This document shows positions 10,790-53,166 of a DNA stretch of 60,705 nucleotides, in pieces. Made by a program: the position numbers and the translations under genes. How positions within the stretch are numbered: the stretch's first letter is position 1; the number at the start of each line of letters is the position of its first letter. The stretch is from a virus, in the IMG/VR virus record IMGVR_UViG_3300024999_000109, positions 1 to 60,705 of that record; one strand, 5' to 3'. Below the pieces are notes generated by a model. That model saw nothing but the letters and a program-made list of their open reading frames with translations, had not been told where the DNA came from and made no database searches.

Positions 10790-10831
10790 GACAAACAGGG
10801 GCGAGCAGAAGCATCATAACACGGGAGGGAG

Positions 10832-11391: not shown

Positions 11392-11834
11392 AAACCGTAA
11401 CAATGCGCACCCTCGATGATCTCGATGTGGTTGCCAGAGAGGTCCGTGAGTGCTTCGACAAAAACGGCTCGGTAGAGGTGACATTCTGCCCTGCCGATAA
11501 GCCGAAAAAAGGCAGGACGTGGAAGCAAAACAAATCTCTGCACCTGTATTGCACGACCATTGCCGAAAAAATGAACGCAGCAGGGATAACACAGCGGGAG
11601 CTTGTCGGTAAATTCCGGGATGGCTTTGAACTGCCTGTCGAGATGCACATGGTTAAGGCCATTTTCCGGGAAGTCGGAAAGGCATTGTACCAAAAGGAAT
11701 CTACCGCTGATCTGGAGACGGTCGAGATGATCAAAGTCTATGAGGTGGTCGACCAAAGATTTGGGGAAATCGTCGGCATTCGGGCTGAATGGCCGAGCAT
11801 GGACTCGTTAATGGGAGAACGGGTGGAGCCATGA
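11388..11834 (+). CDS. NinB-like recombination-associated protein
   Basis: This encodes 148 residues. The stretch TWKQNKSLHLYCTTIAEKMNAAG, then KAIFREVGKAL and STADLETVEMIKVYEVVDQRFGEIVGI, resembles a family of phage proteins placed next to recombination genes and often called NinB-like. The neighbours fit: a resolvase, a zinc DNA-binding protein and an AAA ATPase. The assignment rests on pattern resemblance only. Confidence 0.55.
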   Translation: MKTVTMRTLDDLDVVAREVRECFDKNGSVEVTFCPADKPKKGRTWKQNKSLHLYCTTIAEKMNAAGITQRELVGKFRDGFELPVEMHMVKAIFREVGKALYQKESTADLETVEMIKVYEVVDQRFGEIVGIRAEWPSMDSLMGERVEP

Positions 11835-12016
11835 AGATTACCGAGGAAGAGCATAAACACCACCTGAAGTCCAAAACTCAGAACGAAATCGACTTCATCC
11901 TCGGCACGATCCTAGAGGCCGAGAACAAGCCAAGGAACATCATCTCAGGGACGCTTGACGAGGTGCTGGAGCATATACGCAATACTGATTTTGCGGGGCG
12001 GAGGAAAAAACGATGA
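11831..12016 (+). CDS. Small charged protein, unknown function
   Basis: This encodes 61 residues and starts and ends in ATGA overlaps. It is highly charged and largely helical with a His-rich start and a basic tail (GRRKKR). No family is recognised. Confidence 0.6.
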   Translation: MKITEEEHKHHLKSKTQNEIDFILGTILEAENKPRNIISGTLDEVLEHIRNTDFAGRRKKR

Positions 12017-12210
12017 AACAACGAGAAGATTGTTCAATTTGCAATGCAACCGGCCTATGCGATGAACTTGGCGGGGAAGAAAGTGCATGTATGATCTGCA
12101 ATGGCAAAGGGTATATCGAGTGGGATTACGACCCGTCGCCATATTGCTCGTGCTGTGGGGCGATGAAGAAAGCCAACTGCCATTGCGGGCCAATACCGGA
12201 TAATGATTGA
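12013..12210 (+). CDS. DnaJ-type zinc-finger mini protein
   Basis: This encodes 65 residues. CSICNATG and CMICNGKGYI are CxxCxGxG-type repeats as in the DnaJ central zinc domain, and a third Cys cluster (YCSCCGAMKKANCHCG) follows. It probably binds two zinc ions. Phages carry many such free-standing zinc mini proteins; the target is unknown. Confidence 0.7.
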   Translation: MKQREDCSICNATGLCDELGGEESACMICNGKGYIEWDYDPSPYCSCCGAMKKANCHCGPIPDND

Positions 12211-12216
12211 GGATAC

Positions 12217-12513
12217 ATGAGGCCAAAACAACCAAGAATAGCCCTATCAAAAGCGAAGTACCGCAAGCTCAAGGAGTACATTTTCGAGCGGGACAACTAC
12301 TGCTGTGTGTGGTGCGGCAATCCAAGCAACCTGACCGCAGCGCACATAATCAGGCGAAGCGCAGGGGGCCCCGATAGCCCAAACAATGTCGTAACTGGGT
12401 GCTGTGTTTCGATACAGGGCGGCAAGGGATGCCACGACAGATTTGATCAATACGAAATTGGCTTGCCTGACCATATCGCTGAGATGCTGGCCGGCGAGCC
12501 GGAAGAAATTTAA
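12217..12513 (+). CDS. HNH nuclease
   Basis: This encodes 98 residues. Zinc ligands CCVWCG and GCHDRF bracket the HNH core LTAAHIIRRSAGG ... NNVVTGC, with the catalytic His in AAHII. It is short, lacks an extra DNA-recognition domain and sits inside the recombination cluster. Recombination or replication nuclease is more likely than terminase-partner HNH, because it is far from terminase. Confidence 0.85.
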   Translation: MRPKQPRIALSKAKYRKLKEYIFERDNYCCVWCGNPSNLTAAHIIRRSAGGPDSPNNVVTGCCVSIQGGKGCHDRFDQYEIGLPDHIAEMLAGEPEEI

Positions 12514-12524
12514 CGGAGGAAATA

Positions 12525-13547
12525 ATGTTCAAGAAAGCAGTGAAAGAAAAACTAAAGTGCCGTCTCGCCATCGAAGGCCCGAGTGGTAGCGGAAAATCAT
12601 ACTCAGCCCTGCTCATCGCCCGCGGGCTGGTAGGTGATGAGGGCAGGATAGCGATGATCGACACGGAAAAGGAGAGCGGTAAACTGTACGCCGACGTGAC
12701 CGAGTTTGATCATGCGACCCTCAACGAGCCATACACCCCGGAACGCTATATCTCCCTCATCGACATGGCGAAGGGGTATGACTGCATCATCATCGACAGC
12801 ATGTCTCATGAGTGGGTCGGGGCTGGCGGAATCTTGGAAATTCACGACAAGATGCCGGGAAATTCGTGGACGAACTGGTCGAAGTGCAATCCGCGCCACG
12901 ATGCGTTTATCAATGCCATCCTCAAAGCTCCATGCCACGTCATCGTAACACTACGAAGCAAGCAGTCATATACTCAGGACGAGGACGCGAGCGGCAAGAA
13001 ACAGGTAAAGAAACTCGGCCTCGCACCTCAGCAGCGTGACGGGATCGAGTACGAACTGACCGCCGTTCTGAAGATGGACGTTTCCCACCAGGCAGAGGGC
13101 GACAAGGACCGCACCGGGCTTTTCCCGATTGGAACATGGTTCACTCCATCGGTAGAGACTGGCAAAACTCTTGCCGCGTTTTTGGACGCAGGGGTGGTGC
13201 CAGAGGTCAGACCAGAGCAACCCATACAACCACACCAACCAGAGCCTGAAATAACGGCATGGGAAGATTTAGCGGCCATCGTGGATGAGTGGGAGAAAGA
13301 GGCCGACAAGAACGACAAAACGGTTGATACCCTGGGTGAGTGGTACAAGAAGAATGCCGATAAAATAAAAGCTCTCCCGTTGCCGGCAAGGACCAAGATC
13401 AACGCCTACGTGAAGCAGTTGAAGGAGGCAAAGGCCGCGCCCGTGTCATGGGAGTGCCCGCGTGGCGGCAAGGTTACGACGGTTGAGTGCGAGGCGTGTG
13501 AAGCATCGGCTGATTGCGAAAATTATCAATCGAAACTGAAAAAATAA
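12525..13547 (+). CDS. AAA-family ATPase, phage RecA/Sak4-like type
   Basis: This encodes 340 residues. Walker A GPSGSGKS is at 18-25 and Walker B-like DCIIIDSMSHEW is at about 86-97. The fold is of the AAA_24 / Sak4-like single-strand annealing or recombination ATPase type. Residues about 225-240 are a Pro/Gln linker, and the C-terminal tail carries four Cys (WECPRGG, CEACEASADC), an extra zinc-like module not usual in the family. With the resolvase and NinB-like genes it suggests a recombination module. Confidence 0.8.
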   Translation: MFKKAVKEKLKCRLAIEGPSGSGKSYSALLIARGLVGDEGRIAMIDTEKESGKLYADVTEFDHATLNEPYTPERYISLIDMAKGYDCIIIDSMSHEWVGAGGILEIHDKMPGNSWTNWSKCNPRHDAFINAILKAPCHVIVTLRSKQSYTQDEDASGKKQVKKLGLAPQQRDGIEYELTAVLKMDVSHQAEGDKDRTGLFPIGTWFTPSVETGKTLAAFLDAGVVPEVRPEQPIQPHQPEPEITAWEDLAAIVDEWEKEADKNDKTVDTLGEWYKKNADKIKALPLPARTKINAYVKQLKEAKAAPVSWECPRGGKVTTVECEACEASADCENYQSKLKK

Positions 13548-13585
13548 ATAAACCAACCAGCGCAACCGCTGGAATGAGGTGTGAT

Positions 13586-13972
13586 ATGTGCGAAATTAAA
13601 ACTGGGGATGAAGTGCTGGTATGCGGCAGCGTGGAAGTCAACGATATAAGGATATTCTTATACACCGCAAAAGACGGAAGGCATGTATGTCAAAAACGGG
13701 AAAACTGGGAGGAAGGCAAGATAAATTACGTCACAACTTGGAACGAAATCAAGCCAGCCCCCAAATACGAAACGCGGGTACTCGGGCCGGTGGCGATGAT
13801 GGAGGCGTTGATTGACCATGGGTTTACGTGTGATGAGTGTGGAGACTGGCAAGACCCGTCCGGCAGTTATGTTTTTGATTCTTCAATGTTCTGGATTTGC
13901 GGCAAGTCAACGAAAGACAGCGGATGGGAATGGAAAGAGTGGATGCTAGAAAAAATTGAGGTGAAACCATGA
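13586..13972 (+). CDS. Zinc-containing phage protein
   Basis: This encodes 128 residues from the ATG preceded by GAGGTG; longer in-frame starts lack a site. The pattern is an N-terminal Cys, beta strands, then TCDECGDWQDPSG and a Trp-rich end, likely one zinc ribbon. Its stop overlaps the next start. Function unknown. Confidence 0.6.
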   Translation: MCEIKTGDEVLVCGSVEVNDIRIFLYTAKDGRHVCQKRENWEEGKINYVTTWNEIKPAPKYETRVLGPVAMMEALIDHGFTCDECGDWQDPSGSYVFDSSMFWICGKSTKDSGWEWKEWMLEKIEVKP

Positions 13973-14172
13973 AATCAAGAGCAATCCTGAAAGCAGTAAC
14001 CAGAGCACAGCTTTTCATCCAATCCGCCCGCGCCTACCTCCAGGCAGAGCGCACCTACACCGACGCGCACCATGTCGCGCCGGGGCCTCGGTCGCTGCCG
14101 GTGGAGTCGGGGAATTTGAGGCGGAGTAGTTTGGATTTAACGCTGGCCTTGGCAGAGGTTCGACGGTCATGA
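13969..14172 (+). CDS. Small basic helical protein
   Basis: This encodes 67 residues coupled by ATGA on both sides. It is rich in Arg and Ala with two helical segments and no known motif. Confidence 0.5.
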   Translation: MKSRAILKAVTRAQLFIQSARAYLQAERTYTDAHHVAPGPRSLPVESGNLRRSSLDLTLALAEVRRS

Positions 14173-14912
14173 AACATCGTGAGGAAATAATCGGGGATTG
14201 CCGGTTGATACTGGGGGATTGTGCCGAAGTGATAAAGACATTGCCGAAGGTTGATGCGGTTATAACCGATCCTCCTTACGGAGATAGCGATACTCATGAT
14301 GGGCATCTCTCAAAGGTGACATTAAAGAATGGAGAACCTGCCCGGCAGGTTCTCGGGTTCGCTGGTATAAATTCAGTGGATATGCAGGAGATTGTTAGTC
14401 AGTGGCTTAAAATATGCACAGGATGGGTTGTGTTTACCTGTGAATGGAAATTCTGTAATGAACTTGATAATGCAGGATATCTAATCCGTTTTGGAATATG
14501 GAGAAAACCAGACGGTGCCCCTCAATTTACCGGAGACAGACCGGGAACGGGTTGGGAGGCTGTAGCTATATGCCACAACAAAGGGAGAAAGAAGTGGAAT
14601 GGTGGGGGAAAACATGGTTTCTGGATATGGCCCAAAGGAGAGAATAAAAGCGGGCACCCTACAGGCAAACCAATAGGTTTATTCCAAGACTTTATAAAAG
14701 ATTTTACATCAAAAGGGCATGTAATCCTCGACCCATTCATGGGCAGCGGCACAACCGGAGTAGCCTGCGTAAATCTAGGCCGGAAATTCATCGGAATTGA
14801 GATCGAAGAGAAGTATTTCGACATCGCTTGCCGAAGAATAGAGAAGGCCACAAAGAACAAACCGCGCCTATTCGACGCACTACCTAAGCCTAAACAAATG
14901 GCGCTGATATAG
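14169..14912 (+). CDS. DNA methyltransferase, beta class (N6-adenine or N4-cytosine)
   Basis: This encodes 247 residues. Catalytic motif IV DPPYGDSD (from residue 34) comes before the SAM-binding motif DPFMGSGTT (about residue 190), the beta-class order. FIGIEIEEKYFDIACRRI is the usual C-terminal SAM-domain helix. The gap between motifs is long enough to hold a target-recognition region. DPPY favours N6-adenine. It probably protects phage DNA from restriction or marks it for regulation; no partner nuclease gene is beside it. Confidence 0.9.
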   Translation: MKHREEIIGDCRLILGDCAEVIKTLPKVDAVITDPPYGDSDTHDGHLSKVTLKNGEPARQVLGFAGINSVDMQEIVSQWLKICTGWVVFTCEWKFCNELDNAGYLIRFGIWRKPDGAPQFTGDRPGTGWEAVAICHNKGRKKWNGGGKHGFWIWPKGENKSGHPTGKPIGLFQDFIKDFTSKGHVILDPFMGSGTTGVACVNLGRKFIGIEIEEKYFDIACRRIEKATKNKPRLFDALPKPKQMALI

Positions 14913-14938
14913 CCACCGAAGTACCAACAGGAGGAATT

Positions 14939-15739
14939 ATGGACGTAAAATATACAAGCGATGGGAAAAAGGTGGTCGTAGTTGGCCAGTTAAACACACA
15001 AGAAACTATCGTGCAGGAGGTGTTTTGCAAGTCAGACGGTGCCGAGATTCCATCCGGGCAAAACTTTGTTGTAAAATCGTTGCACGACGAGCCGGTTGTA
15101 TCGTGGCAGGAGAAGAGAAAGAAGGATATAGATGAGGCTTACGAGCGGGCCAGGGCCGCGTATGAGCGTGAGGAGAAGTCGCTAAGGTTGAAATATCGGG
15201 AAGAATTAATGGTGCTCAGATCCCTGACTAAAAAGACAAAAGAGTATCAAAAACTTGGGGATCTCGGAGAGACGATAACAAAGTTTATGGCAGGTGAAAT
15301 TACCCATCTAGTCGTCAAAGAGTATGGAGATTACGCAATAACCGAATTTGGTAGCTCTATTGCCGAAAACGATTTTGAAGAAATAAAACTATTGACCTTA
15401 TTCGGTGGCACAAAACAGGGCTTGCAGTGGAGGTTAAATCATTACAGAGATGGATCTGGGTCCGACACAGACGTATACCCAGCCACATCTATTGACGATG
15501 CAAAGCAGATAATCGAAGGCTTGATATCAGCCGACATCACAAAGGGTAAAGGTGCTACCGATAGCATGATAAAGGCAAAAAAGGTGTACGGGTTGTCTGT
15601 GCCATCACAGGAGGAAATATCCGAGAAATACAAAAAAGATCTCGCCTACATCAGGGAAAGAATAGCAAAAGCTGCTGGCGATTTGGATAAAATAAAGGCG
15701 CAAGAAATTGAATTGATGGAGAAGGCGGCTCTTAAATAA
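14939..15739 (+). CDS. Coiled-coil phage protein, unknown function
   Basis: This encodes 266 residues behind an AGGAGG site. Residues about 60-110 (EKRKKDIDEAYERARAAYEREEKSLRLKYRE) form a charged coiled coil, a compact alpha/beta domain lies in the middle, and a second helical pair (about 220-262) ends the protein. It is the last gene of the first early operon. Confidence 0.6.
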   Translation: MDVKYTSDGKKVVVVGQLNTQETIVQEVFCKSDGAEIPSGQNFVVKSLHDEPVVSWQEKRKKDIDEAYERARAAYEREEKSLRLKYREELMVLRSLTKKTKEYQKLGDLGETITKFMAGEITHLVVKEYGDYAITEFGSSIAENDFEEIKLLTLFGGTKQGLQWRLNHYRDGSGSDTDVYPATSIDDAKQIIEGLISADITKGKGATDSMIKAKKVYGLSVPSQEEISEKYKKDLAYIRERIAKAAGDLDKIKAQEIELMEKAALK

Positions 15740-15781
15740 CCACAATTTGTAACAAAAATAATCGCCTTTTCAGTCTTACAA

Positions 15782-15809
15782 TTGACGATAAAAACTTGTC
15801 CTCTATGCT
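15782..15809 (+). promoter_or_regulatory. Sigma70-like promoter before the replication genes
   Basis: TTGACG (15782-15787), a 16-bp spacer and TATGCT (15804-15809). CACAATTTGTA at 15741-15751 just upstream matches 6695-6705 in the repressor control region, hinting at common control. The leader to 16012 also holds a small TCGGT/ACCGA hairpin and the long stem described separately. Confidence 0.55.
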
Positions 15810-15878
15810 GGGCGAGGTAAAGTTAAATATCAGTTCGGTTGGCTACCGAATACACAATCTGATGAATGCTATGAAATC

Positions 15879-16016
15879 ATGAAAACAAACTCCGAAAATC
15901 TAATATCTGAAGGCAGGAAACTGACCACGCCATCAAGGGACGCAGCGTATCATAGCGCGCTGCTAAAAGCCCTTGCGGTCAGTTTCCTGCCTTTTTTTAT
16001 TCGGTGTCTCGCATGA
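15879..16016 (+). CDS. Possible 45-residue leader ORF spanning the long hairpin
   Basis: An ATG-started frame runs through the stem-loop and ends in an ATGA overlap with the next gene. Its hydrophobic C-terminus arises from the stem and T tract, so it may be an accident of the hairpin; the overlap is the only support. Confidence 0.25.
   Translation: MKTNSENLISEGRKLTTPSRDAAYHSALLKALAVSFLPFFIRCLA
15911..15998 (+). terminator. Terminator-like long stem with 50-nt capped loop
   Basis: A perfect 16-bp stem (15911-15926 with 15977-15992) is followed by seven Ts. The 50-nt loop contains further pairing (AAGGG/CCCTT and CAGC/GCTG). It may attenuate transcription into the replication genes or yield a small processed RNA. 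The loop is far longer than in an ordinary terminator. Confidence 0.65.
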
Positions 16017-16153
16017 AAAAGAAGAAGCCAAAGAAGCTCGAATGGGCCGATAGGTTGCGTCTTTATTCAGAAGAAAAACGCGCCATAATGGATTCAACGA
16101 CGGAATGGAATGAAGCCATCCATCAAAAACTGATTAAAAAATACAGGATTTGA
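16013..16153 (+). CDS. Small basic protein
   Basis: This encodes 46 residues starting 15 bases after the T tract and ending one base before the next ATG. A Lys-rich start (MKKKKPKK) precedes an amphipathic helix. No known family. Confidence 0.55.
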   Translation: MKKKKPKKLEWADRLRLYSEEKRAIMDSTTEWNEAIHQKLIKKYRI

Positions 16154-16154
16154 C

Positions 16155-16946
16155 ATGGAAAAGGACGCATTCTATTTCCCCCATTTTTGCAATGCCAGGA
16201 ATGATCGAAAGATTAAAAGACTCCGAAAGGAACTCGGAATAGAGGGATACGGGATATTCTTTATGGTGCTCGAGGTGCTCAGAGAACAGACCGACTACAA
16301 ATATCCGATTGACGATATTGATCTACTCGCAGATGAGTTTTGTACGAGCGAACAAAAGGTCAGGACGGTGGTCACAAATTACGATCTTTTCAGGGTCGAT
16401 TCAAAGAAAAAACTGTTTTCAGCGAAGTTGATTACATATTTGCAGCCAATGTTGGAAAGAAGGGAAAAAGCAAAGGTTGCGTCAATGATAAGGTGGGATA
16501 AATACAAAGCACAGTTAAATCAAGATGATATCTCGAATGCTCAAGCATTGCTCACGCATAGCTCAAGCAATGCCCAAGCTATGCAAGGAAAGGAAAGGAA
16601 AGGAAAGGAAAGTATTATAAGGCCGGACTTTATCTCCGAGAAGTCTTGGAATGATTTATTGACTCACAGAAAAGAGAAAAGAGCATCAAGGTCAAAACGA
16701 GCGATTGACACCTTGACTGGTGAAATTGAGAAAGCAGTTTCCGCCGGATTTTCGGTTGACCAGTGTATTGACGAGATGGTCAACCGGAATTGGACAGGGT
16801 TTAAAGCTGAGTGGATGGAGAACTCGAGGCCAAGGGCCGCGGCAACAGGGGCCAAAAATTGTCCACAGTGCGAATACCTCGCCCGCGGTAAGTGTGATGG
16901 GAAAAAAGAGAAATGTACAGCATTTATCAAGGTGGTGAACCAATGA
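16155..16946 (+). CDS. Replisome organizer / replication initiator (DUF4373-like)
   Basis: This encodes 263 residues. YFPHFCNARNDRKIKRLRKE with GIEGYGIFFMVLEVL is the N-terminal winged-helix signature of the Lin1244/DUF4373 family of phage replisome organizers. The middle (about residues 125-155) is low complexity and is encoded by an iteron cluster and a GGAAA repeat, probably the origin itself. The C-terminus adds a four-Cys motif (CPQCEYLARGKCDGKKEKC). It precedes the helicase gene with an ATGA overlap, like lambda O before P. Confidence 0.8.
   Translation: MEKDAFYFPHFCNARNDRKIKRLRKELGIEGYGIFFMVLEVLREQTDYKYPIDDIDLLADEFCTSEQKVRTVVTNYDLFRVDSKKKLFSAKLITYLQPMLERREKAKVASMIRWDKYKAQLNQDDISNAQALLTHSSSNAQAMQGKERKGKESIIRPDFISEKSWNDLLTHRKEKRASRSKRAIDTLTGEIEKAVSAGFSVDQCIDEMVNRNWTGFKAEWMENSRPRAAATGAKNCPQCEYLARGKCDGKKEKCTAFIKVVNQ
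16539..16610 (+). other. Candidate replication origin: 11-bp iterons plus purine repeat
   Basis: Four head-to-tail 11-bp units (GCTCAAGCATT, GCTCACGCATA, GCTCAAGCAAT, GCCCAAGCTAT; 16539-16582) are followed by five AGGAA units (16586-16610) and an A/T-rich stretch. Eleven is not a multiple of three, so the repeat is kept at the DNA level although it lies inside a gene. This matches the lambda-type arrangement of iterons within the initiator gene beside an asymmetric purine tract. Confidence 0.7.
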
Positions 16947-23452: not shown

Positions 23453-23537
23453 GGAGACGTGGCGGAATGGTAACGCGCCCGGCTGTAACCCGGCAGCACC
23501 GAATAGGTTCGAGGTTCAAATCCTCGCGGCTCCACCA
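23453..23537 (+). tRNA. tRNA-Tyr (GTA)
   Basis: An acceptor stem with one mismatch (GGAGACG/CGGCTCC), anticodon loop CTGTAAC giving GTA, a long variable arm, T arm CGAGG-TTCAAAT-CCTCG and encoded CCA. The long variable arm is normal for bacterial tRNA-Tyr. Confidence 0.85.
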
Positions 23538-23540
23538 ATA

Positions 23541-23630
23541 GGAAGGTTGGCAGAGGATGGTAATGCGCGTGATTGCTAATCACAGGCAGGTGGAAAAGCC
23601 TCATTGGTTCGAATCCAATACCTTCCTCCA
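23541..23630 (+). tRNA. tRNA-Ser (GCT)
   Basis: Acceptor GGAAGGT/ACCTTCC, anticodon loop TTGCTAA giving GCT, variable arm around GGC/GCC, T arm ATTGG-TTCGAAT-CCAAT, encoded CCA. It reads AGC/AGT codons. Confidence 0.9.
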
Positions 23631-42397: not shown

Positions 42398-42739
42398 ATG
42401 TTTGACTTCAACGAAGTCCTAGAATCTCCCGAATACCAGAACGCCACCGATGATCTTGAATGCAAACTATGCAACGGCATACCGCAGAGATGGAGGCAAA
42501 AGCCACTAATTATTCTTTCACTTTATAGGCCATTAAGTCTGTGCGAAAACCATCTTGCCGATGTGGTCAATTCTTACGGAAATAAATTTAACAAAGATAC
42601 CAGATTGTGCGCTGACTGTGGTTGTCTTGTAGAAAAAAAAGACTGGTCAACGATGGGCCAGTTGTCTCGCGGTAGAGATATCTGTGAAAAATGTTTCACC
42701 AGTCATACTTGTATGCCAGCCATCGGCCATCATGGGTAA
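42398..42739 (+). CDS. Zinc-rich protein carrying the giant protein's N-terminus
   Basis: This encodes 113 residues. The first 17 (MFDFNEVLESPEYQNAT) copy the start of the next, giant gene; the rest is a different protein with CKLC, CADCGC and CEKCF zinc motifs. The copied part is about 84% identical in DNA with many silent changes, so the peptide itself appears to be under selection and could be a virion-packaging or assembly tag. Confidence 0.7.
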   Translation: MFDFNEVLESPEYQNATDDLECKLCNGIPQRWRQKPLIILSLYRPLSLCENHLADVVNSYGNKFNKDTRLCADCGCLVEKKDWSTMGQLSRGRDICEKCFTSHTCMPAIGHHG

Positions 42740-42765: not shown

Positions 42766-45700
42766 ATGTTTGACTTTAATGAGGTCTTTGATTCGCCTGA
42801 ATACCAGAACGCCACCCCGGAAGCGCAACTTGAGGTCGAGGCGCTGCTCGCTGAAAACTTCTGGACCGAGCTAACGTCTGATCCATCATGGGTTGAAAAA
42901 ACGCCTGAAGAGCAGAAGGAATACCGGAAAGCGTTTGATCAGCGGTTCCGGCCTGGCCTTGAGGTCAGACTGAAACTTGAGGGAGATGGCCGAAGCACCT
43001 TGGACGTTGCCAAAGACACCGGCATTGCCTTAACGAAGGGTGTTGTCAATGCCGGGGCTGGCGTTGTTGGTATTGCCGATATAGCCACAGGTGGACGTGT
43101 CGGCAAGTTCATGAACGACAAGACAGGGTACGACCCGAAGGCAACCAATCAATTCCTTGATGAGAAGTATTCCGAAGAGCAGCAACTTGCCAACCAGAAT
43201 GTAGAGCAGGCCGAAGGATTTGGCGGGAAGGTAAAAGCCCTCGCTCAAAACCCAAGCGCGGCGGGGATACTCACCCTTGAATCAGTACCGTCGATGGTCG
43301 GTGGCGCCGGGATAGGCCAGGGCATAAGGAAGGTTGCTGGTGCTGGCGGGATATTGGCCGCAGGTGCTGGTGAAGGTGCGATATCTGCCGGTTCAATGGC
43401 GGAACAGATCAGACAGGAAAACCCGGATGAATTATTGACACCCGGGCAGGCGGCAATGTCTGCCGGTTCTGGTGTGCTCACCGGAGCGCTTGGTGTGGTC
43501 GGTGGCAGGCTGGCGCAAAAGATGGGTTTCACCGATATCGACAGTTATCTCGTGACGGTGGGAGATGAGGCAGTCAAGGCCACAGGCGCAAAGGGCGTGG
43601 TCAACCGGATTATAGGCGGCGGCATCACTGAAGGCGCGTTTGAGGAAATGCCGCAGTCTATGCAAGAGCAGGTATGGCAGAACGCGGCAACCGGCAAGCC
43701 TCTCATGCAGGGAGTGCCGGAAGCAGGCGGCGAGGGCGCGGTTCTTGGTGGAATTATGGGTGCTGGTGCAAATCTTCTTCCGAGCAAACCAACCCCGAAA
43801 GACATAATCGACGCCCCAGATATCGACACGGCAATAGACACCTTCACCGAGTCTGTAAAATCCATTGATACCAAGATTGCCGGGATTGACGAACGGGTGA
43901 AGGGTTCGCCGGTTGATTTTGGGATACTTTCATCGCCCGTCGATCCGATTACAGGGCAAGCAATCATACAGGGGAAAACAGATGATACTATTCGGGCGGC
44001 TGGAAATAATCTGGTACAAGAAGGGCCAGCTCAAGGAAGTGTTGGCATCGAGGGTGTGCCAGAGGGTGGCGGCGGAAGTGAACGCCAGGTCAATACAGAT
44101 GCAGGCGTCAGTAATCCGCGAACTGAGGGAGGAATTGAAAGCAGCGCGAGGCGAGATTATCAGATACAAAACGGCACCACCGCCACAGCAGGAGATGCCG
44201 GGGGAGTTTTGGGAAAAGGAAATGCGCTTGAAGTCCCCGAATACACCGAATCAGCCATAAACGACGCCCTCTACGACTTCTCCGACCAAGCCCAGGACGA
44301 GCAGGACCAGGCCGACGCCCGGAAGCGCAAGAATGACTTCGTGAACATGCGCGATGAGGATCAGGCTATCACCGAACTCAATCGCCGGAACCAGCCCGAG
44401 GTCGAACCCGACCCGCAGTTATCCGCACCAATCCAGAAAACAACGCCTCTATCCAGGATCAAAAAGGATTACGGGGTTGACGTTTATAACGAGGTCAAGG
44501 CGGCAAGAGGTAATGGTGAGGCTATATCTGTAGAGGAAGCGATAAACAGGGTCGTTAAGAAGCAGGGCGGCGATGTATTTGCCGATACACAGGGAGAACA
44601 AAATGGAGACACTCGACCAAACGATAGCGCGGTTGTTCGGAGAAGCGAAGAAAGCGGAGCAGCAGCGGGATTGGGAAATACAGAGGGAGGTGCTGATCAA
44701 GAGGCAGGAATACGCGGCGGCACTGCGGAAGTACAGCCAGTTGAAGCAGGGCCACAAAATCCCCCCCAAATCCCCCAATCAGCCCAATATCTAGGCAAAT
44801 CACTCGGCGAGCATCTTTACAAGGATACTGACGGGACGTTGTATCGGAGTGAGGAGGCACCTGCTGAGAAAGCTGCCGTTGCGCCTCAGCAAATAGAGAC
44901 AAGCCAGGTTGTGTCTCAAAATAGCGAAGATATGAGTCGCAAAATCACCTCTGCGGCGAAAGATGAACAAAACTTCTCCAAAAAGAGAAAGTTCTCTGCG
45001 GCAGGCGGCCCAGACGTGGAATCGCTCTCCGAGAAGGGGAAGAGTAATGCGGCAAGTATCGCCATGGAGTGGCAAGGATACGACCCGACCCACTCAGACC
45101 GACTGCTGGCGCTTGAGTCATTTTCATCTTCTGTTGGCGATGGGTTTGTCCCAACCATAGGAAAAGATCAGGGCCTTACCAATAAGCAATCTGCTAGTTT
45201 GCTGGCTATAACTGGGGTGATTTCTGACAAGAAGATTTCTGACAAAATAATGTCACTCGTCTATGCCGGGGAGATCGATGAAGCCAATAAGCTCAGAAAA
45301 GAGCATTCTATCATTTATGACGCTAGGGGTGATGGGGATTTTTCCCCAAAATATACCATAGGCGATAAAGGCAGGAAGTTGATTCAATCGCTTCAATCTG
45401 TTGAGGCGGAAATATCCGCAGCAAGAAGAAGACCGCAAGAACTGAACAACACCCCCTCAGCCTCTGTCCCGGACACGCGCACCGAGGGGGTTACTTCTAT
45501 ACCTGCGACGGCAGACACCTACGAAGAATCCCAAGCCAACCTAGAATCAGTCCGCCCCTCAATCCAATCCGGCAAGGATATCAAAACCGCCCCAAATGTC
45601 GTCTTGATGAACGTCAGGACGAAGAAAGGCGAGAACCCGACCAAGATATCAGCCCCGCACAATGGCACCGAGGAAGACGCGTTACGGGTCGCCAAGGCAC

Positions 45701-48700
45701 TGCGGCTGTACGCAGCCGAGGAATACGATGCCTCCATGCAGCAATCGGAGACATTCGGGACTGATGATAAAGGTTCGCCTCAATACGCTTTCACTCAGGG
45801 GCAGGGGGTTACTGAGGTTGTTCGGCTGGATGATTCAGGGAAGTCCGCCCCAAGTGACAAATCCGCCACTCCAATCAAGCAAGCGTGGCAGATGAACAGG
45901 GCCGAGTTTCGGGAATCGGTTAATACTCCGAAGGTTGCGGCGATCAAGAAAGCAATCTCAGCAGGGCAGCGGATAAGCGTCAACACGCAGTTGAAGTCAA
46001 TCCCCCTCTCAAAGCCCGATCATATCCGCATTGCAAAAGATGGCGGCGTGGCGGTCCCTCAAGGCGCAAAGTGGGTATCTCTGGCTGACGATCAAGTCGA
46101 TTTACTTGCTACTCAGGCTGGAATGGAAGTGCCAGGGTTCAACGAGAAGACATACCACAGAGAAGAAGTTAAGAAAGCCAGGGAAGAGGGAAAACCCGTT
46201 CCTGAAGAGGTTCTTAGCGAATACCCCGACCTCTTTGAAACAGAGGAAGATAATATCATCACCGGCGCAACCGGCACAGCAGAAACCGAGAGTGGCAGGG
46301 AGATATCATTTCAGTGGGTGATAGCAGAGAGTGATGATGTTATCGCCAGCAACGACAAGGATACGATGGAGGTCAACCCGGACTATCCGGCAGAACTCCA
46401 ACCGAGAAACCGCGAGAACGCAGCATACAAACTCCAGGTTGCCAAGATATCAAATAACCTCAAGCCTGCCCGATTAGGATCGAGCCAGATGGTCGGAGAT
46501 GGTGCTCCTATCGTCGGACCTGACATGGCGGTTGAGAGCGGCAACGGTCGAACCATCGCCATCAAGCAGGCATACGGCAGCGGCAAGGCCAATGGGTACA
46601 AAGAATGGATTGCGAAACACGCTGAAGAATTTGGCCTGACCAGTGATCAAGTCAACGGCATGGCCTCGCCTATCCTGGTGCGTGTTCGCCAGACGGAAAT
46701 GACCACCAAGGAACGGGTTGCCTTTGCATCCGAGGCCAATGAGTCGGCGGTAACGGCAATGAGTGCGGTTGAGCAGGCCAGTGTCGATGCGAGAAAACTT
46801 GAATCCCTGGATGACTTCTACCCCTCAGAATCAGGCGAATTTGACAATGCTAGCAATCGGGGTTTTATCAAGCGGTTCATCTCTGCCATCATTGCAGCTT
46901 CAGAGCAGAACGGCATGTACACGGCGGACGGGTCCGCTCTGTCCCAAGAAGGCAAGACGAGAATCCGCAACGCGGTATTCGCCAAGGCATACGGCGCCGA
47001 TGCAAAGGTATTGTCAAGGGTGGTTGAATCGACCGACAACAATATCCGAAACATCACCAATGGAATGTTGATTGCCGCGCCGAAGATAGCCAAAATGAAA
47101 ATGGACATCGCCGCCGGCAAGCTCTATGCTTTAGATAACTCTGAAGAGATCGCCAGGGCCGTTGAAGACCTCGCCTCAATCCTGGCAGAAGGCAAGACGG
47201 TTGATAATGAATTGGCGCAGCTCGGGCTGTTTGGAGATAATCGGACAGAAGCACACAAGGCATTGCTCCGTTTCCTGGAAGAGAACAAGCGGAGCGGCAA
47301 GAAGATTGCTCTTTTTCTGACCGAGTACGTAGGAAATGTCTATGCTGCCGGCAATCCGAAACAGATGGGCATGTTTGGCGAGAAGAGAGCGGCAACCATT
47401 CAGGAAGTCATAGCGAAAGCCGTTTCGACGGTGGAGGAAAGCAAAAATGTCGGAAAACAAGCAGAAATACCCTGGAATACAGGCACTGAACGAAGCGACA
47501 AAAGACCCGCTGATATCCAGGATAATGATGGACTCGATACGAGCAGCGGAGAAGGGCGAGCCAAGAAAGGTCAAGAATCCGCTCAGGCCGGGGTTGCGCC
47601 GGAAGAAGTAGGGAAGCCCGGACCACTCCCGGAATATGCCAAGAAGGCCGGGATAGCAACATGGAAGCAGGCGCAGAGAAAAGGCGTGGCCTCGCTTATC
47701 TCTCAAGCCAAGGGCTACGCCGACGAGATAGTCAAGCACAACGTCACCATGACACGCGGCAATCCCGAATCGGTAGCCAATAAGATAGCCGAAGAGATAA
47801 TCCAGCGTACCGTCATCTCTGGCGGCCTTGATTCAACACTTCAAGGCCTCGCTGTTCAATATTGGCAGAAGGCGAAAAGCAACGGCAGCGACCCCTCAGG
47901 TGATCAGCATTATACCGCCATTGCTCGGGGGATTGAGGCACTTCGGGCCAGGCTGAAGAATTTAGGGAAGACCAAAGAGGTGGGCTCCTTAAATAGCGGC
48001 AGCATCCTTGACATTTCCCAGGGAAAAGCTGAGAATAAAGTTGAAGGCGCGGTATTCACAACCCAAGGAGAAGGAGAAGAAAATGTACTGCGGCAAACTC
48101 CCGGAATATCCATCTTCATCAATTCTTCAGCCCAAACCAGGGCAGAAAGTCTCCTTGCATCCGTCACTCACGACAGGGTCGGGGAGTTTAGAACAAAGAC
48201 CAAGCGGATCAGGACGGCAAAAGAAGTCGCTGAAGTCGTCGGCCCAAGAATTGCTGGCGAAGCTCAAGAGAATATTTTCGTCGTAGCGACAACCGAAGAC
48301 GGTTCACCCCTGGCAATCCTGCAGCACTCCTACGGAAAGAAATCATCCGCAGTTCTTGAATATGACTCAGTCATAGGCTTTGTCCACAACACAGAAGGGG
48401 CGGAACGGTTCTGGGTAATCCACAATCATCCGGTCAAAAACCCGAAACTATCAGACGCAGATAAAAGTGTCTCCAATGCGCTGTTCTCTCTAACCAGCGG
48501 CACCGGGATAGAGTTCAACGGACTGATGGCGATAGACGTTGAGGGGAATTATGAATATTCCTTTTCCGGGGACGACAATCAAACACCTTCAGGATACTAC
48601 CTTTTTGATAAAGATATCCCGCTCGTAAGGAGAGTTTTAAGCAAGTACGATACTGAAAATATTGTCAATGGCGACAATGCTGATATTGCCGTCCCTGAAA

Positions 48701-51700
48701 TGCTTGAGCCGTTTGGGAATACAAACGGCGTATTGATGTTTGACAACCAGGGCGGACCGCTTGGGTTCGTATCCTTATCGGAAGACGAAACACTCCAGTT
48801 GCGCAGTGGGCGCAAAGGCACAGGGGCATCGAAGATTCTTTCGGCCATTGAAGCATCCAATGCGACGTTCTACGCTGTTTCAACACACTCCCCAGCAAAT
48901 ACCCTCGCAAACGGCAATATTACATCATTCTTGACCCTGCATGGCGGGAATGTATTCAGGAACTACCGCGACGGTCAGAAAATTCCTTTGACCTCTGGTG
49001 ATATTGGATCTGGATCGACGTTCTTCTCCCGTGAGGCAGGGGGAGTATTCACCCAAGCCGAAGTAGAGAAAGAGCTATCCGCCCACCTTGGCGCCAATGG
49101 CATGCAGAACCTTCTCGCCACCGGCACCGTCCGCATTCTCAACACCCAGGACCAGGCCCGGAAGATCATTGACCGGCTGAAGACACGCAACGTCAAGCAC
49201 TCCATCCGCTATTCCAAGAACGGGGCTATTCAGGGATTCACCACCGCCAGCAAGGTCTATCTGGTCCGGGATGGCATAGCCAAGGGCAAATCCTTCGCGG
49301 TCCTGAAGCATGAGCTTGGTGCCCATCTCGGCCAGGCCACCTTGAATAATGCCGAATTTCAGGCGCTCCTGAAGTCAATCGAAGCCCGCAAGGATGAGCA
49401 GAGCAAGACCGGCGACGCCATCCGCGCGGCGATGGCGAGAGTGCCGAAATCCACAAACCCCGAACATTACTGGGAAGAGGTATTGGCCTACGCGGTTGAG
49501 CAATCCCCGGAAGTCGGCATAGGCCGCAGGTTCATCGCCTTAATCAAACGGATGCTCGTCAAGCTCGGCATCTCTCCGAAGATATTTACGGCGGCTGATC
49601 TGGCGGCATTGGCTGAGGCTGCTGTGAGAAGAGAAACAAGGTCGGTAGAAAATGAGAAACAGAGAGATACGAAAAGAACAGCAGAGAAAACAAATTCCGG
49701 CAATTCACGGTTATTGCGTGCATCCATATCTCCAGATGGTGAGGCGGGGAGAGATAACGCCAGAGGAATGCGGCGAGATGTTGAAGGAATTGAGGGAGTG
49801 GCACCGGAAGAAGTACGGGGTCTGAGCGATGACGAGCCTATGTTCTCCGTGCAGGCAGCCGAAGCCTACGACACCGACATGCAGGAGTCGGCGGAAGAAG
49901 AACCCAACGCCCCTATCATAGCCGACGCAGCAGGCACATTCAGCACCGGGACATACGATGATCCTGCCATGATAGCGCAGATCAAACCAGGCGTACAGGT
50001 TGAGCTTATCCGCGAGCCGGAGAACGAAGCCGACTCCGATGCAATTAGAATCGAACTGAACGGCAAGAAAGTGGGCTACGTCTCCAAGATAAAATCACCG
50101 CAACTCACCGACCTCATGGACGACAGGGTGGACCTGACTGCGAAAATCCGCACCGTAGCGAACCCCGAAAGGCCCGTATTCACCATCGAGATTGCCAAGC
50201 CCGAAGGCATGACCGATATGCAAGAGCGAAGCTGGGCGGATGCAAGGGATATCATCGGCAGGCACAAGGACGGATGGTCATTCAAGCGCATTGCCGAGAA
50301 AGCAGAGGTGGACCCGGAAGAAGACTACACCGACGACATTGAAGCAGCGGCAAGAGAAGTATTGGAAAAATCCAAGCCTGAAAAAAACTGGGTGAAAAAG
50401 ATTGTCAAGTTTGTCTCTGGATTGAAACATGACAAACTGAACCACCTGTTCAGCGTGTTGACTTTGCAGCAGTTGGACGACATCTACGGTAGAGACTTTA
50501 CCCCTGTCAAGGATTTCCGAAAGGCGGCAAAGGGTATCTCCGCGATGACCAACGAACTTTTACAGGAAGCCGACCGCCTCCACCAGAAATGGTCAAGCCT
50601 GAATCCGAAGGTAGCGGCGGACATGGCGGATGTCATGTTTAAAGCAACTACTCTCGGGTTCGACCCGGACGTAGACACCGATATCCAGACTCTCAAGGAT
50701 ACCCTGGAAGAGAAAAGGGTTGCATTAAAGGCAGCACGGCAGGCCAAACTTACGGGCGAGCAGAAAGCAAAGATTGTCCGCAAACTCATTAAGGAAGTCG
50801 GAGCGGCAAAGAAGGATCTGGCAGGTGCTGAAGACCTTATCCCGGCATTCAACGCATTGCCTGAAGAAGCAAAGGAAGTATATCGTGAGGTGCGAAAGAT
50901 TTATCAGGACCGCTTTGGTCTCCTGCAAGAAGTCCTCATTGAGCAGATTGAGAAAAGCGGAATCGGCAAGGGCAAGAGATCAACCATCGCCGCTTTGAAA
51001 CTGGAATTTGACAAGCAGATGAAGTCCGGGCCATACTTCCCCCTTTCCCGGTTTGGTGATCATATCGTCATTGCCAAGAAACTTGACAGCGAGGGCAATG
51101 AAGTGGACCGCATGGTCAAGGCCTTTGAACGGTTCGCCAACGCAGAGGAATTTTCCGTCGGCATGAGGGCGAAAGGCTTTGATGTAACCCTGCGGCGAGC
51201 GAAAGACTACAAGCCAGGGCAGCAACCTCCGCACGAATTTGCCAGCGAGGTTTTGAAGATCGTCAACTCTGCGGACATGGATTCACAGGAGCGCAGGCAG
51301 ATCATGGACGAGATCAACCAAGCCATGATCAAGGTTCTCCCCGACCTTTCCTACCGGAAGCATTTTGCCCACAGAAAAGGCGTGAAGGGGTACAGCCAGG
51401 ACGCACAGCGGGCCTTTGCTTCCCATATGCTCCACTCGGCGAAACACATTGCAAAGGTCAAATACGGCACCGACCTGAATACCGCAATCAAAGCGATGGA
51501 GAATAGCAAGTTTGCCCATGACGAGAAGTCGGCGGCGGTCGAGGGCGCACTGAGGAACGAACTGGTGAAGCGGTTTGAGTTTATCATGAACGCCAATGTG
51601 CATCCGGCAGCACAGATATTGACAAGTCTTGGGTTCGCCTGGAACATCGGGCCGTCTTTGGCATCTGCTGTGGTCAACCTCACGCAGACCCCGCTTGTCG

Positions 51701-53166
51701 CTTACCCGCTTATGGGCGCAAGGTTCGGTTTCGCAAAGTCTGCAAGAGCTTTGACAAGGGCAGCAAGGGATTACACAAGGGGTGATCTTTCATGGGAATC
51801 CGGCATGTCTCTTGAGAAAGCGAAATTCCTGAACGAACAAGAGCGGAAGATGTTCGCAGAGCTTATCAAAGACGGCACGATTGACGTTTCCCAAGCCCAC
51901 GACCTGGCGGCAGCAGCGGCGACTGACTATCTATCCCTTGCAGAGAAGGGCGGGAACCTCCATAAATACGCCAAGGTGATGAAACTGGTGTCGGCCCCGT
52001 TCCACTATGCTGAAGTGGCAAACAGGCAGATCACGGCTCTTGCAGCTTATAGAGTGGCGGTTGTCGAAGTCGGGCACGATGCAGCGGTTGACCTTGCCCG
52101 GAAGGTTGTCGAGGAAGGGCATTTTGACTACGGCCAAGAAAATCGGGCCAGGGTGATGCAGGGCAATGTCGCCAGGGTAGCACTGCTGTTCAAGCAGTAC
52201 GCCCAGAACATGAGTTATCGCCTTGTCCGTGACTTCGTGGTGGCACTCAAGAAAAGCGATGTAACCCCGGCAGAGAAACGACAGGCCAAACTGCAATTTG
52301 CCGGGATTCTCGGCGGGCATTTCATGGTTGCCGGCACTCTCGGTCTGCCTGTTGTCGGGATGCTTGGAACAGCTTTAAATATGATGGTCGGCGCTCTTGG
52401 CGATGATGATGAGCCGTGGGACTGGAAAGCAGAGTTTCGGAATTGGCTGGCTGACCGAGTAGGACTGAAGGGCGGCGAGATGATAGCGCATGGCCCGACG
52501 CGTGGCCTTCTCCCGGTTGATGTGGCTGGTCGGCTTTCCCTTGCCGACCTGTGGTGGAGAGGTGACGACCGAGATTTGGAAGGGCGTGAACTGTTCAACC
52601 ATTACATGATGAATATTGCTGGTCCGACAGCCTCAAACGCGGCATCTGTCTTCATGGGTATGGCCTCGATTGCAGACGGTGATATCTGGAAAGGCGTGGA
52701 AATGATGGTCCCGAAATTCGTCAAGGATGTCGCCAAGTCGATTCGGTACGCGAATGAAGGTGTTACCAATAGACAGCAGGACGTTCTGCTTGGCGACCTT
52801 GAGGCAATGGAATTGACCGGGCAGCTTCTCGGGTTCACCCCGGCGCGTGTCGCTGAGATGTATGAAGGGAAGTCGGCAGTCAAGAAGATCGAATATGGCC
52901 TACAGAACAGGCGGACGAGATTGAAGAACAGGTATCTCAGGGCCAAGGAGTCTGGCGACCGTAAAAAGATGGCCGAAGCATGGAAACCTATTCAGAGATG
53001 GAACTCAGCACACGCTGATGTCAAGGCCCTGCGGATAACCAAGAAGGATCTGGATCGGACTGAAAAAACAAGGCAGAGATATCGCAAAGGCACCAAGAAA
53101 GGTATATGGGTTCCAAAGACCAGGGAGTACCTGCGGGATGAGGGACGGTTCGCCAACGTAGAGTAG
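42766..53166 (+). CDS. Giant polyvalent virion protein, DarB-like
   Basis: This encodes 3466 residues, by far the largest gene. Domains seen: Gly-zipper membrane segments (about 80-330); long low-complexity linkers (about 370-720); a ParB/DdrB-like nuclease domain (about 1185-1350, QPRNRENAAYKLQVAKIS, VESGNGRTIAIKQA); a JAB/RadC-like metalloprotease domain with HNHP at 1886; HELGAH at 2182, a metallopeptidase-like motif; a HIRAN domain (about 2400-2478, REPENEADSDAIRI); and helical C-terminal regions with a hydrophobic patch (about 2950-2990) and a second one near 3190. Such polyvalent proteins of P1 DarB type are packed in the head and ejected to protect phage DNA from restriction. Small ORFs nest in its linkers. 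Confidence 0.9.
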   Translation: MFDFNEVFDSPEYQNATPEAQLEVEALLAENFWTELTSDPSWVEKTPEEQKEYRKAFDQRFRPGLEVRLKLEGDGRSTLDVAKDTGIALTKGVVNAGAGVVGIADIATGGRVGKFMNDKTGYDPKATNQFLDEKYSEEQQLANQNVEQAEGFGGKVKALAQNPSAAGILTLESVPSMVGGAGIGQGIRKVAGAGGILAAGAGEGAISAGSMAEQIRQENPDELLTPGQAAMSAGSGVLTGALGVVGGRLAQKMGFTDIDSYLVTVGDEAVKATGAKGVVNRIIGGGITEGAFEEMPQSMQEQVWQNAATGKPLMQGVPEAGGEGAVLGGIMGAGANLLPSKPTPKDIIDAPDIDTAIDTFTESVKSIDTKIAGIDERVKGSPVDFGILSSPVDPITGQAIIQGKTDDTIRAAGNNLVQEGPAQGSVGIEGVPEGGGGSERQVNTDAGVSNPRTEGGIESSARRDYQIQNGTTATAGDAGGVLGKGNALEVPEYTESAINDALYDFSDQAQDEQDQADARKRKNDFVNMRDEDQAITELNRRNQPEVEPDPQLSAPIQKTTPLSRIKKDYGVDVYNEVKAARGNGEAISVEEAINRVVKKQGGDVFADTQGEQNGDTRPNDSAVVRRSEESGAAAGLGNTEGGADQEAGIRGGTAEVQPVEAGPQNPPQIPQSAQYLGKSLGEHLYKDTDGTLYRSEEAPAEKAAVAPQQIETSQVVSQNSEDMSRKITSAAKDEQNFSKKRKFSAAGGPDVESLSEKGKSNAASIAMEWQGYDPTHSDRLLALESFSSSVGDGFVPTIGKDQGLTNKQSASLLAITGVISDKKISDKIMSLVYAGEIDEANKLRKEHSIIYDARGDGDFSPKYTIGDKGRKLIQSLQSVEAEISAARRRPQELNNTPSASVPDTRTEGVTSIPATADTYEESQANLESVRPSIQSGKDIKTAPNVVLMNVRTKKGENPTKISAPHNGTEEDALRVAKALRLYAAEEYDASMQQSETFGTDDKGSPQYAFTQGQGVTEVVRLDDSGKSAPSDKSATPIKQAWQMNRAEFRESVNTPKVAAIKKAISAGQRISVNTQLKSIPLSKPDHIRIAKDGGVAVPQGAKWVSLADDQVDLLATQAGMEVPGFNEKTYHREEVKKAREEGKPVPEEVLSEYPDLFETEEDNIITGATGTAETESGREISFQWVIAESDDVIASNDKDTMEVNPDYPAELQPRNRENAAYKLQVAKISNNLKPARLGSSQMVGDGAPIVGPDMAVESGNGRTIAIKQAYGSGKANGYKEWIAKHAEEFGLTSDQVNGMASPILVRVRQTEMTTKERVAFASEANESAVTAMSAVEQASVDARKLESLDDFYPSESGEFDNASNRGFIKRFISAIIAASEQNGMYTADGSALSQEGKTRIRNAVFAKAYGADAKVLSRVVESTDNNIRNITNGMLIAAPKIAKMKMDIAAGKLYALDNSEEIARAVEDLASILAEGKTVDNELAQLGLFGDNRTEAHKALLRFLEENKRSGKKIALFLTEYVGNVYAAGNPKQMGMFGEKRAATIQEVIAKAVSTVEESKNVGKQAEIPWNTGTERSDKRPADIQDNDGLDTSSGEGRAKKGQESAQAGVAPEEVGKPGPLPEYAKKAGIATWKQAQRKGVASLISQAKGYADEIVKHNVTMTRGNPESVANKIAEEIIQRTVISGGLDSTLQGLAVQYWQKAKSNGSDPSGDQHYTAIARGIEALRARLKNLGKTKEVGSLNSGSILDISQGKAENKVEGAVFTTQGEGEENVLRQTPGISIFINSSAQTRAESLLASVTHDRVGEFRTKTKRIRTAKEVAEVVGPRIAGEAQENIFVVATTEDGSPLAILQHSYGKKSSAVLEYDSVIGFVHNTEGAERFWVIHNHPVKNPKLSDADKSVSNALFSLTSGTGIEFNGLMAIDVEGNYEYSFSGDDNQTPSGYYLFDKDIPLVRRVLSKYDTENIVNGDNADIAVPEMLEPFGNTNGVLMFDNQGGPLGFVSLSEDETLQLRSGRKGTGASKILSAIEASNATFYAVSTHSPANTLANGNITSFLTLHGGNVFRNYRDGQKIPLTSGDIGSGSTFFSREAGGVFTQAEVEKELSAHLGANGMQNLLATGTVRILNTQDQARKIIDRLKTRNVKHSIRYSKNGAIQGFTTASKVYLVRDGIAKGKSFAVLKHELGAHLGQATLNNAEFQALLKSIEARKDEQSKTGDAIRAAMARVPKSTNPEHYWEEVLAYAVEQSPEVGIGRRFIALIKRMLVKLGISPKIFTAADLAALAEAAVRRETRSVENEKQRDTKRTAEKTNSGNSRLLRASISPDGEAGRDNARGMRRDVEGIEGVAPEEVRGLSDDEPMFSVQAAEAYDTDMQESAEEEPNAPIIADAAGTFSTGTYDDPAMIAQIKPGVQVELIREPENEADSDAIRIELNGKKVGYVSKIKSPQLTDLMDDRVDLTAKIRTVANPERPVFTIEIAKPEGMTDMQERSWADARDIIGRHKDGWSFKRIAEKAEVDPEEDYTDDIEAAAREVLEKSKPEKNWVKKIVKFVSGLKHDKLNHLFSVLTLQQLDDIYGRDFTPVKDFRKAAKGISAMTNELLQEADRLHQKWSSLNPKVAADMADVMFKATTLGFDPDVDTDIQTLKDTLEEKRVALKAARQAKLTGEQKAKIVRKLIKEVGAAKKDLAGAEDLIPAFNALPEEAKEVYREVRKIYQDRFGLLQEVLIEQIEKSGIGKGKRSTIAALKLEFDKQMKSGPYFPLSRFGDHIVIAKKLDSEGNEVDRMVKAFERFANAEEFSVGMRAKGFDVTLRRAKDYKPGQQPPHEFASEVLKIVNSADMDSQERRQIMDEINQAMIKVLPDLSYRKHFAHRKGVKGYSQDAQRAFASHMLHSAKHIAKVKYGTDLNTAIKAMENSKFAHDEKSAAVEGALRNELVKRFEFIMNANVHPAAQILTSLGFAWNIGPSLASAVVNLTQTPLVAYPLMGARFGFAKSARALTRAARDYTRGDLSWESGMSLEKAKFLNEQERKMFAELIKDGTIDVSQAHDLAAAAATDYLSLAEKGGNLHKYAKVMKLVSAPFHYAEVANRQITALAAYRVAVVEVGHDAAVDLARKVVEEGHFDYGQENRARVMQGNVARVALLFKQYAQNMSYRLVRDFVVALKKSDVTPAEKRQAKLQFAGILGGHFMVAGTLGLPVVGMLGTALNMMVGALGDDDEPWDWKAEFRNWLADRVGLKGGEMIAHGPTRGLLPVDVAGRLSLADLWWRGDDRDLEGRELFNHYMMNIAGPTASNAASVFMGMASIADGDIWKGVEMMVPKFVKDVAKSIRYANEGVTNRQQDVLLGDLEAMELTGQLLGFTPARVAEMYEGKSAVKKIEYGLQNRRTRLKNRYLRAKESGDRKKMAEAWKPIQRWNSAHADVKALRITKKDLDRTEKTRQRYRKGTKKGIWVPKTREYLRDEGRFANVE
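43982..44260 (+). CDS. Nested ORF 1 in the giant gene, +1 frame
   Basis: This encodes 92 residues from an ATG with AGGGG nine bases upstream. It reads as a normal helical protein (LASRVCQRVAAEVNARSIQMQ, VIRELREELKAARGEII), whereas the giant frame over the same DNA is a Gly/Asn/Ser-rich linker. It looks like an ordinary small gene that the giant frame reads through. Confidence 0.5.
   Translation: MILFGRLEIIWYKKGQLKEVLASRVCQRVAAEVNARSIQMQASVIRELREELKAARGEIIRYKTAPPPQQEMPGEFWEKEMRLKSPNTPNQP
44603..44794 (+). CDS. Nested ORF 2 in the giant gene, +1 frame
   Basis: This encodes 63 residues with an AGGGAG site. METLDQTIARLFGEAKKAEQ and the following charged helix have natural protein composition, unlike the Gly/Ala/Glu-rich linker in the giant frame. 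It ends in a PP-rich tail. Confidence 0.5.
   Translation: METLDQTIARLFGEAKKAEQQRDWEIQREVLIKRQEYAAALRKYSQLKQGHKIPPKSPNQPNI
47447..47611 (+). CDS. Nested ORF 3 in the giant gene, +1 frame
   Basis: This encodes 54 residues with a GGAGGAAAG site. YPGIQALNEATKDPLISRIM followed by a basic PRKVKNPLRPGLRRKK tail looks like a small phage protein. It lies in the linker just after the ParB-like region. Confidence 0.5.
   Translation: MSENKQKYPGIQALNEATKDPLISRIMMDSIRAAEKGEPRKVKNPLRPGLRRKK
48083..48286 (+). CDS. Possible nested ORF 5 or relic, +1 frame
   Basis: A strong GGAGAAGGAGAAG site precedes an ATG (MYCGKLPEYPSS...). Only the first 20-30 residues look protein-like; the rest shadows the JAB domain frame. 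It may be the remaining front of a former small gene. Confidence 0.25.
   Translation: MYCGKLPEYPSSSILQPKPGQKVSLHPSLTTGSGSLEQRPSGSGRQKKSLKSSAQELLAKLKRIFSS
49652..49825 (+). CDS. Nested ORF 4 in the giant gene, +1 frame
   Basis: This encodes 57 residues. IPAIHGYCVHPYLQMVRRGE and MLKELREWHRKKYG form a convincing helical protein; the giant frame here is a charged linker between the HELGAH and HIRAN regions. The ribosome site (AAGGTCGG) is modest. Confidence 0.5.
   Translation: MRNREIRKEQQRKQIPAIHGYCVHPYLQMVRRGEITPEECGEMLKELREWHRKKYGV

Follow-up and report, generated by a model that had tools for sequence, protein, structure and literature searches.

Candidate genes nested out of frame in the interdomain linkers of a giant polyvalent phage gene

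We examined a giant viral gene whose interdomain linkers are overlain by small open reading frames in the +1 frame. It is likely that three of these ORFs (N1, N2 and N3), and probably one more (N5), are real nested genes of captured origin, with starts of their own, and that the giant reads through them. For polyvalent giants as a class, we lean slightly towards the view that their linkers are largely other genes: small, often mobile, inserted in the +1 frame, still expressed, and read out of frame as spacer. More than 150 related giant genes of phages and prophages appear to carry small +1-frame genes over their linkers.

The giant gene and its nested ORFs

The window, meaning the whole stretch of DNA that was analysed, is a 60.7-kb viral record (IMGVR_UViG_3300024999_000109; 60,705 nucleotides) that holds the giant gene at 42766..53166 (+). 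Its features are listed here in window coordinates.

42766..53166, + strand: giant polyvalent (DarB/DdrB-like) gene, 3466 aa (ORF, Pfam, PHROG)
42985..43779, + strand: N-terminal domain of the giant, kin of the F116 giant protein (tblastn)
43970..43975, + strand: candidate ribosome site of N1, AGGGGA (sequence)
43982..44260, + strand: N1, nested +1 gene, 92 aa, in the linker after the N-terminal domain, giant aa 406-498 (likely)
44591..44596, + strand: candidate ribosome site of N2, AGGGAG (sequence)
44603..44794, + strand: N2, nested +1 gene, 63 aa, giant aa 613-676 (likely)
46240..47478, + strand: ddrB-type ParB module of the giant, aa 1159-1571 (Pfam PF18763, PHROG_5143)
47433..47438, + strand: candidate ribosome site of N3, GGAGGA (sequence)
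47447..47611, + strand: N3, nested +1 gene, 54 aa, directly after the ParB module, giant aa 1561-1615 (likely)
48083..48286, + strand: N4, a fifth ORF tentatively proposed earlier, unsupported as a gene
48211..48564, + strand: RadC-like JAB domain of the giant (Pfam PF04002)
49652..49825, + strand: N5, probable nested +1 gene, 57 aa, SHOCT-like C-terminal half, giant aa 2296-2353
49960..50157, + strand: HIRAN domain of the giant (Pfam PF08797)
50428..53157, + strand: LPD39 and DarB-like C-terminal region of the giant (Pfam PF18858, PHROG_30335/10089)

The giant matches the Pfam families ddrB-ParB (6.6e-34), LPD39 (4.4e-20), HIRAN (5.5e-8) and RadC (3e-7), and the PHROG family of DarB-like antirestriction proteins (4.8e-133). 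By tblastn, its N-terminal domain is 36-42% identical to the giants of Pseudomonas phage F116 and Pseudoalteromonas phage Y7, and its LPD39/DarB-like C-terminal region is 89% identical in the closest relative, locus L134, which is without clear nested genes. Several effector and LPD domains thus stand in one large phage polypeptide, as expected of a polyvalent protein, and the giant is multidomain in the same way as the DarB-DdrB-like giants already described (ddrB-ParB, RadC, HIRAN, LPD39 and a DarB-like C-terminus; PMC5512222). A DarB-like protein has been found in virions of JC1 (PMC9144972).

The original prediction placed four ORFs, beginning at 43982, 44603, 47447 and 49652, in the +1 frame of the giant; all four are present there and start with ATG. 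It also credited most of them with good ribosome sites, which is true of N1 (AGGGG), N2 (AGGGAG) and N3 (GGAGG) and untrue of N5, whose AAGG is poor. For N2, the AGGGAG site precedes the ATG at 44603, whereas the codon score given below was taken for the ORF from the ATG at 44573. A second open frame with a start and a ribosome site, one of the marks of dual coding, is found at N1, N2 and N3; at N5 the site is weak. The giant frame has the character of a linker over N1, N2, N3 and N5, where 11-17% of its residues are hydrophobic (17% over N1, 13% over N2) against a gene mean of 27%. N4 does have an ATG and the +1 frame, but we rejected it as a gene: codon usage in the giant is normal over it, hydrophobic residues make up 28% there, and the ORF overlaps the start of RadC. 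The C-terminal half of N5 resembles Pfam SHOCT-like_DUF2089-C, though at 19.7 bits (E = 6.5e-4) this lies below the gathering cut-off of 27 and is a resemblance only.

Codon usage in the window

An open +1 frame is in itself unremarkable here. The giant contains 10 ORFs of at least 53 aa in this frame, and synonymous shuffles yield a mean of 6.2 (P = 0.047). Codon usage is more telling. We trained a codon model on the window's other genes and defined d as the nested minus the giant codon log-odds per codon. Along the giant, the giant frame scores positive almost everywhere and the +1 frame negative except over the nested ORFs, where both frames score about equally and the synonymous usage of the giant frame becomes atypical. 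The values for N2 (+0.10), N3 (0.00) and N1 (-0.06) stand apart from those of the remaining +1 ORFs; N5, at -0.29, gives a weak codon signal, and N4 scores -0.34. The codon usage of N1, N2 and N3 is gene-like, and that of N5 is less so.

How often such ORFs arise by chance was gauged by shuffling codons within blocks of 40, which retains the composition of the linkers. A single ORF of the quality of N1-N3 arose in 62 of 500 shuffles (about 12%), and none of the 500 produced three +1 ORFs of at least 54 aa with d of at least -0.07, the number that the window holds. Because this threshold was chosen after the data had been seen, 0 of 500 is strong support for the set and not an exact P value.

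Nested genes in related giants

Comparison of related giants showed that the arrangement recurs. Across 202 giants, 235 of the 2771 +1 ORFs were gene-like (d > -0.1) as against 3 of the 764 +2 ORFs, and the 166 control ORFs taken from these loci gave 4 of 269 above this threshold, two of them pieces of split giants. When loci were fetched by the giant's C-terminus alone and not by a nested gene, 43 of 80 had at least one nested gene. At least one strong +1 ORF lies in the linkers of the giants of POI1126, Skulduggery, PBC5, Y7, PEp14, Pavtok, Atu_ph08, Parlo, ZX1 and 8P; none was found in the Y11 giant. Two large families stand out. Family A (HWKE..P..Y..L, about 105 aa; alignments A1 and A5) is nested in about 135 fetched loci, counted across collections that overlap to some extent; their phages and prophages belong to alpha-, beta- and gammaproteobacteria, plus a small number of other assigned hosts. 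Family B (M.QVP...WN; alignments A2 and A6) is about 129 aa long. All 110 IMG/VR loci of the two families (71 of A, 39 of B) have the small gene in the +1 frame of a longer ORF on the same strand, and in 109 the covering ORF is at least 500 aa long.

Some positions are occupied again and again. N3 starts 1156 nt after the start of the ParB domain. Among 46 other non-redundant ParB giants with at least 2000 aa, 26 fill this slot with a +1 ORF (d > -0.35) that starts 1060-1180 nt after the same point. None of 32 ParB proteins shorter than 1500 aa has a nested gene there. Several families occupy the slot, none of them visibly homologous to N3. Of 14 other giants, 5 carry +1 genes beyond the N-terminal domain, and their distance from it varies. 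N5 exactly fills a gap (aa 2294-2353) between blocks shared with L134, where homology ends at aa 2293 and restarts at aa 2354, so that the N5 linker is a mosaic junction; L134 carries about 750 other residues in its place.

Selection appears to act on both frames. Family A sequences that are 90-95% identical in DNA differ, per site, by 0.053, 0.037 and 0.155 at nested codon positions 1, 2 and 3, and the identity of the nested protein exceeds that of the giant frame in nearly every pair. The same bias is seen in family B and in a 29-member family (IDPP...FDTL..W, the IDPP family). Since substitutions in these large families fall mainly on the third nested base, which is the giant's first, the nested protein is what selection preserves there; the members within a family are related, and pair counts are not independent. 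In smaller families, including a 16-member one of the ParB slot, the bias is not clear. Ribosome sites precede 68% of nested starts and 27% of other ATG or GTG codons of the +1 frame. When nested codons were resampled synonymously, the giant frame acquired a mean of 3.3 stops and had an 8% chance of staying open (1.5% for N1, P = 0.0145; 4% for N2; 1.9% for N3; 10% for N5). It is nevertheless open, and thus is also constrained. The suggestion that the linkers are truly dual coding is supported in the relatives: there, selection acts on the amino acids of the nested frame, and stops are kept out of the giant frame.

The preference for the +1 frame is explained only in part. Over all nested genes, 11% of giant-frame residues are hydrophobic, compared with 26% in whole giants. 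Ordinary genes already give 19% when read in the equivalent frame, and 23% in the remaining alternative frame; part of the linker character thus comes from the frame itself. Stop density as the full cause of the bias is unsupported, as ordinary genes have 2.98 and 2.93 stops per 100 codons in the two alternative frames.

Several candidates from the wider survey were set aside. The apparent nested ORF of F116 is probably a record frameshift inside a methyltransferase (L008, about 10658-11095), and a PBC5 orf with a nested family in frame is probably another (L006, about 5111-5539). P1 iddB is antisense to ddrB and unrelated to the nested genes, and P1 DdrA bears no resemblance by eye to the nested families. 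In L016 (Itty13), a giant ORF open for more than 4000 codons (3987-16323) holds a nested family A gene on the strand opposite to the annotation; the record annotates three other-strand ORFs instead.

Origin of the nested genes

The search for free-standing phage homologs of the window's nested proteins came back empty: N1-N5 had no match among 50,697 phage records at E<=1, and N1, N2, N3 and N5 had no significant E-value match among the nested ORFs of related giants. Single-protein scans of IMG/VR with N1 and N5, and a scan with an unaligned ParB query, also found nothing. Because of this, we infer the origin of N1-N5 by analogy with the nested genes of their relatives. Two of these (loci L128 and L133) are HNH endonuclease genes in the +1 frame (PHROG_3377, E about 1e-45), and the L128 giant stays open for 3860 codons across its HNH gene, with InPase, ResIII, helicase, methylase and LPD38 in frame. 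Family A weakly matches the Pfam family TnpV (PF14198; 21 of 34 members, best E 3.6e-5), the two members with TnpV scores reaching 20.7 and 21.9 bits, below the gathering cut-off of 27. Its 39 matches in bacterial genomes are mostly nested in a long ORF (27); six have no covering ORF, and for another six every covering ORF is below 500 aa. In the loci examined, free-standing copies lie near transposase, Mob or integrase genes, and family A has mobile-element neighbours at L214 (rve integrase core, Mob_Pre) and at L217 and L234 (phage integrase). For these families, the HNH genes and the free-standing kin of family A favour capture over birth in place, and the sequences favour small-gene capture with the giant reading through as linker. 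The proposal that small genes are read through out of frame is supported in relatives, by the intact giants across HNH genes and by free-standing family A. Its companion, that the giant was built by fusing separate genes, has circumstantial evidence only: the small ParB proteins with an empty slot, and the unfused P1 genes darA, darB (last 1843 codons) and ddrB, which have no nested genes. An ancestral unfused arrangement with a small gene between both halves was not found.

In the mechanism we propose, ribosomes would begin each nested gene at a start of its own on the mRNA of the giant, while those translating the giant would pass it in frame 0 and make a hydrophilic, probably disordered linker, whose sequence would matter little provided the giant frame stays open. 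The nested genes may be captured small genes, some of mobile families, that landed in, or became, interdomain linkers. By their position, their products would be made together with the giant as short, mostly helical proteins. AlphaFold2 models are helical both for family A, which has a confident core (first 70 residues at pLDDT 90-95; mean 80), and for family B (moderate core, mean pLDDT 77), and fold searches with these models gave no PDB match at E<=0.001. As a guess, the products may help to assemble, package or deliver the giant. Translation in vivo, capture of N1-N5 and function are all things that we infer.

The chief competitor to capture is that the linkers came first and the nested genes were born inside them de novo, which is possible but in our judgement doubtful. 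Viral overlapping genes ordinarily arise by overprinting (PMC8227390), no independent homologs of family B or of the slot families were detected, and every IMG/VR match to families A and B is nested. However, the HNH endonucleases and the TnpV-like family exist independently, and codon usage is more typical in the nested frame and atypical in the giant frame. Were the ORFs instead relics of inserted genes serving only as linker, gene-like codon usage without recognisable function would be accounted for, and N5 with its weak codon signal could fit; we hold this to be improbable, given that selection still acts on the nested frame of families A, B and IDPP and that start codons and ribosome sites are preserved.

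It is also unlikely that the window's nested ORFs yield no product and owe their open, gene-like +1 frame to chance, through the codon composition of hydrophilic linkers. Open +1 ORFs of such length are expected under synonymous shuffling, one ORF at the d threshold is no rarity, and no homologs of N1-N5 were found, but three such ORFs never occurred together in the shuffles, the ribosome sites are good, N3 sits in a conserved slot, and the homology and substitution pattern of the relatives support the same arrangement. Programmed +1 frameshifting, with each nested ORF an alternative C-terminus of a truncated giant, would suit the shared +1 register of all nested ORFs and is very hard to credit: every sequence in the first alignments of families A and B has the initial Met, ribosome sites are enriched at nested starts, and a stop in the +1 frame precedes the nested start by a median of 9 codons, so that a shift site would have little space.

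Captured genes read through as linkers would differ from the known cases they recall. Rz1 within Rz is an embedded spanin, a single pair of cooperating lysis genes. The likeness is a small phage gene wholly nested out of frame in another; here, many unrelated genes nest in the linkers of one class of giant. Overprinted viral genes (PMC8227390) likewise code in two frames, of which one is constrained and the other loose, but in the usual model the new protein is born in the old frame (PMC8227390), whereas here some nested genes have independent homologs that are older, and the derived frame is the linker of the giant. The nested HNH genes of L128 and L133 belong among phage homing endonuclease genes (PHROG_3377), yet lie out of frame in an ORF that runs on unbroken and requires neither intron nor intein to restore it. 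Family A recalls TnpV in its weak match and in its free-standing copies near mobile-element genes; it differs in that its scores are below cut-off where shown and its nested copies sit in phage giants.

We found no out-of-frame genes described in the paper on polyvalent proteins (PMC5512222), in which "overlap" and "linker" are absent and "nested" is used only of a hairpin fold. The open-access literature yielded no description of such genes in these giants; subscription papers and preprints were outside its scope, and priority is unproven. Standard annotation drops ORFs nested in a longer gene, which is why these families were missed, and the phage genes overlooked in this way probably form a large set. 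The nested families are new candidate proteins that may act with virion-delivered anti-defence giants. They also offer many partly independent cases of linkers made by out-of-frame reading of existing genes, a process that can be tested against overprinting. If linkers do come from captured genes, this would be a general route to domain fusion and a means of storing accessory genes without a longer genome.

Some further observations concern relatives and the rest of the window. In L064 (9639-10269), the giant has an in-frame stop within its helicase, followed by a +1 DUF559-type endonuclease ORF; this may be an intron or insertion, and the ORF was not counted as nested. A cluster of four loci has a further HNH-like nested +1 ORF (L195:7194-7646), and in Pseudidiomarina (L231:5974-6762) a free-standing family A domain is fused to an apparent membrane segment. 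Directly upstream of the window's giant, a 113-aa Cys-rich ORF (42398-42739) starts MFDFNEVLESPEYQNAT; its start duplicates that of the giant over 59 nt (83% identical, including GGTGA before the ATG), with differences mostly at third codon positions. Tandem repeats at 16538-16612 (an 11-mer x3.8 and AAGGA x5.6) lie within the ORF 16155-16946, where the AAGGA 5-mer could permit slippage. Genes for tRNA-Tyr (gta) and tRNA-Ser (gct) stand side by side at 23453-23630.
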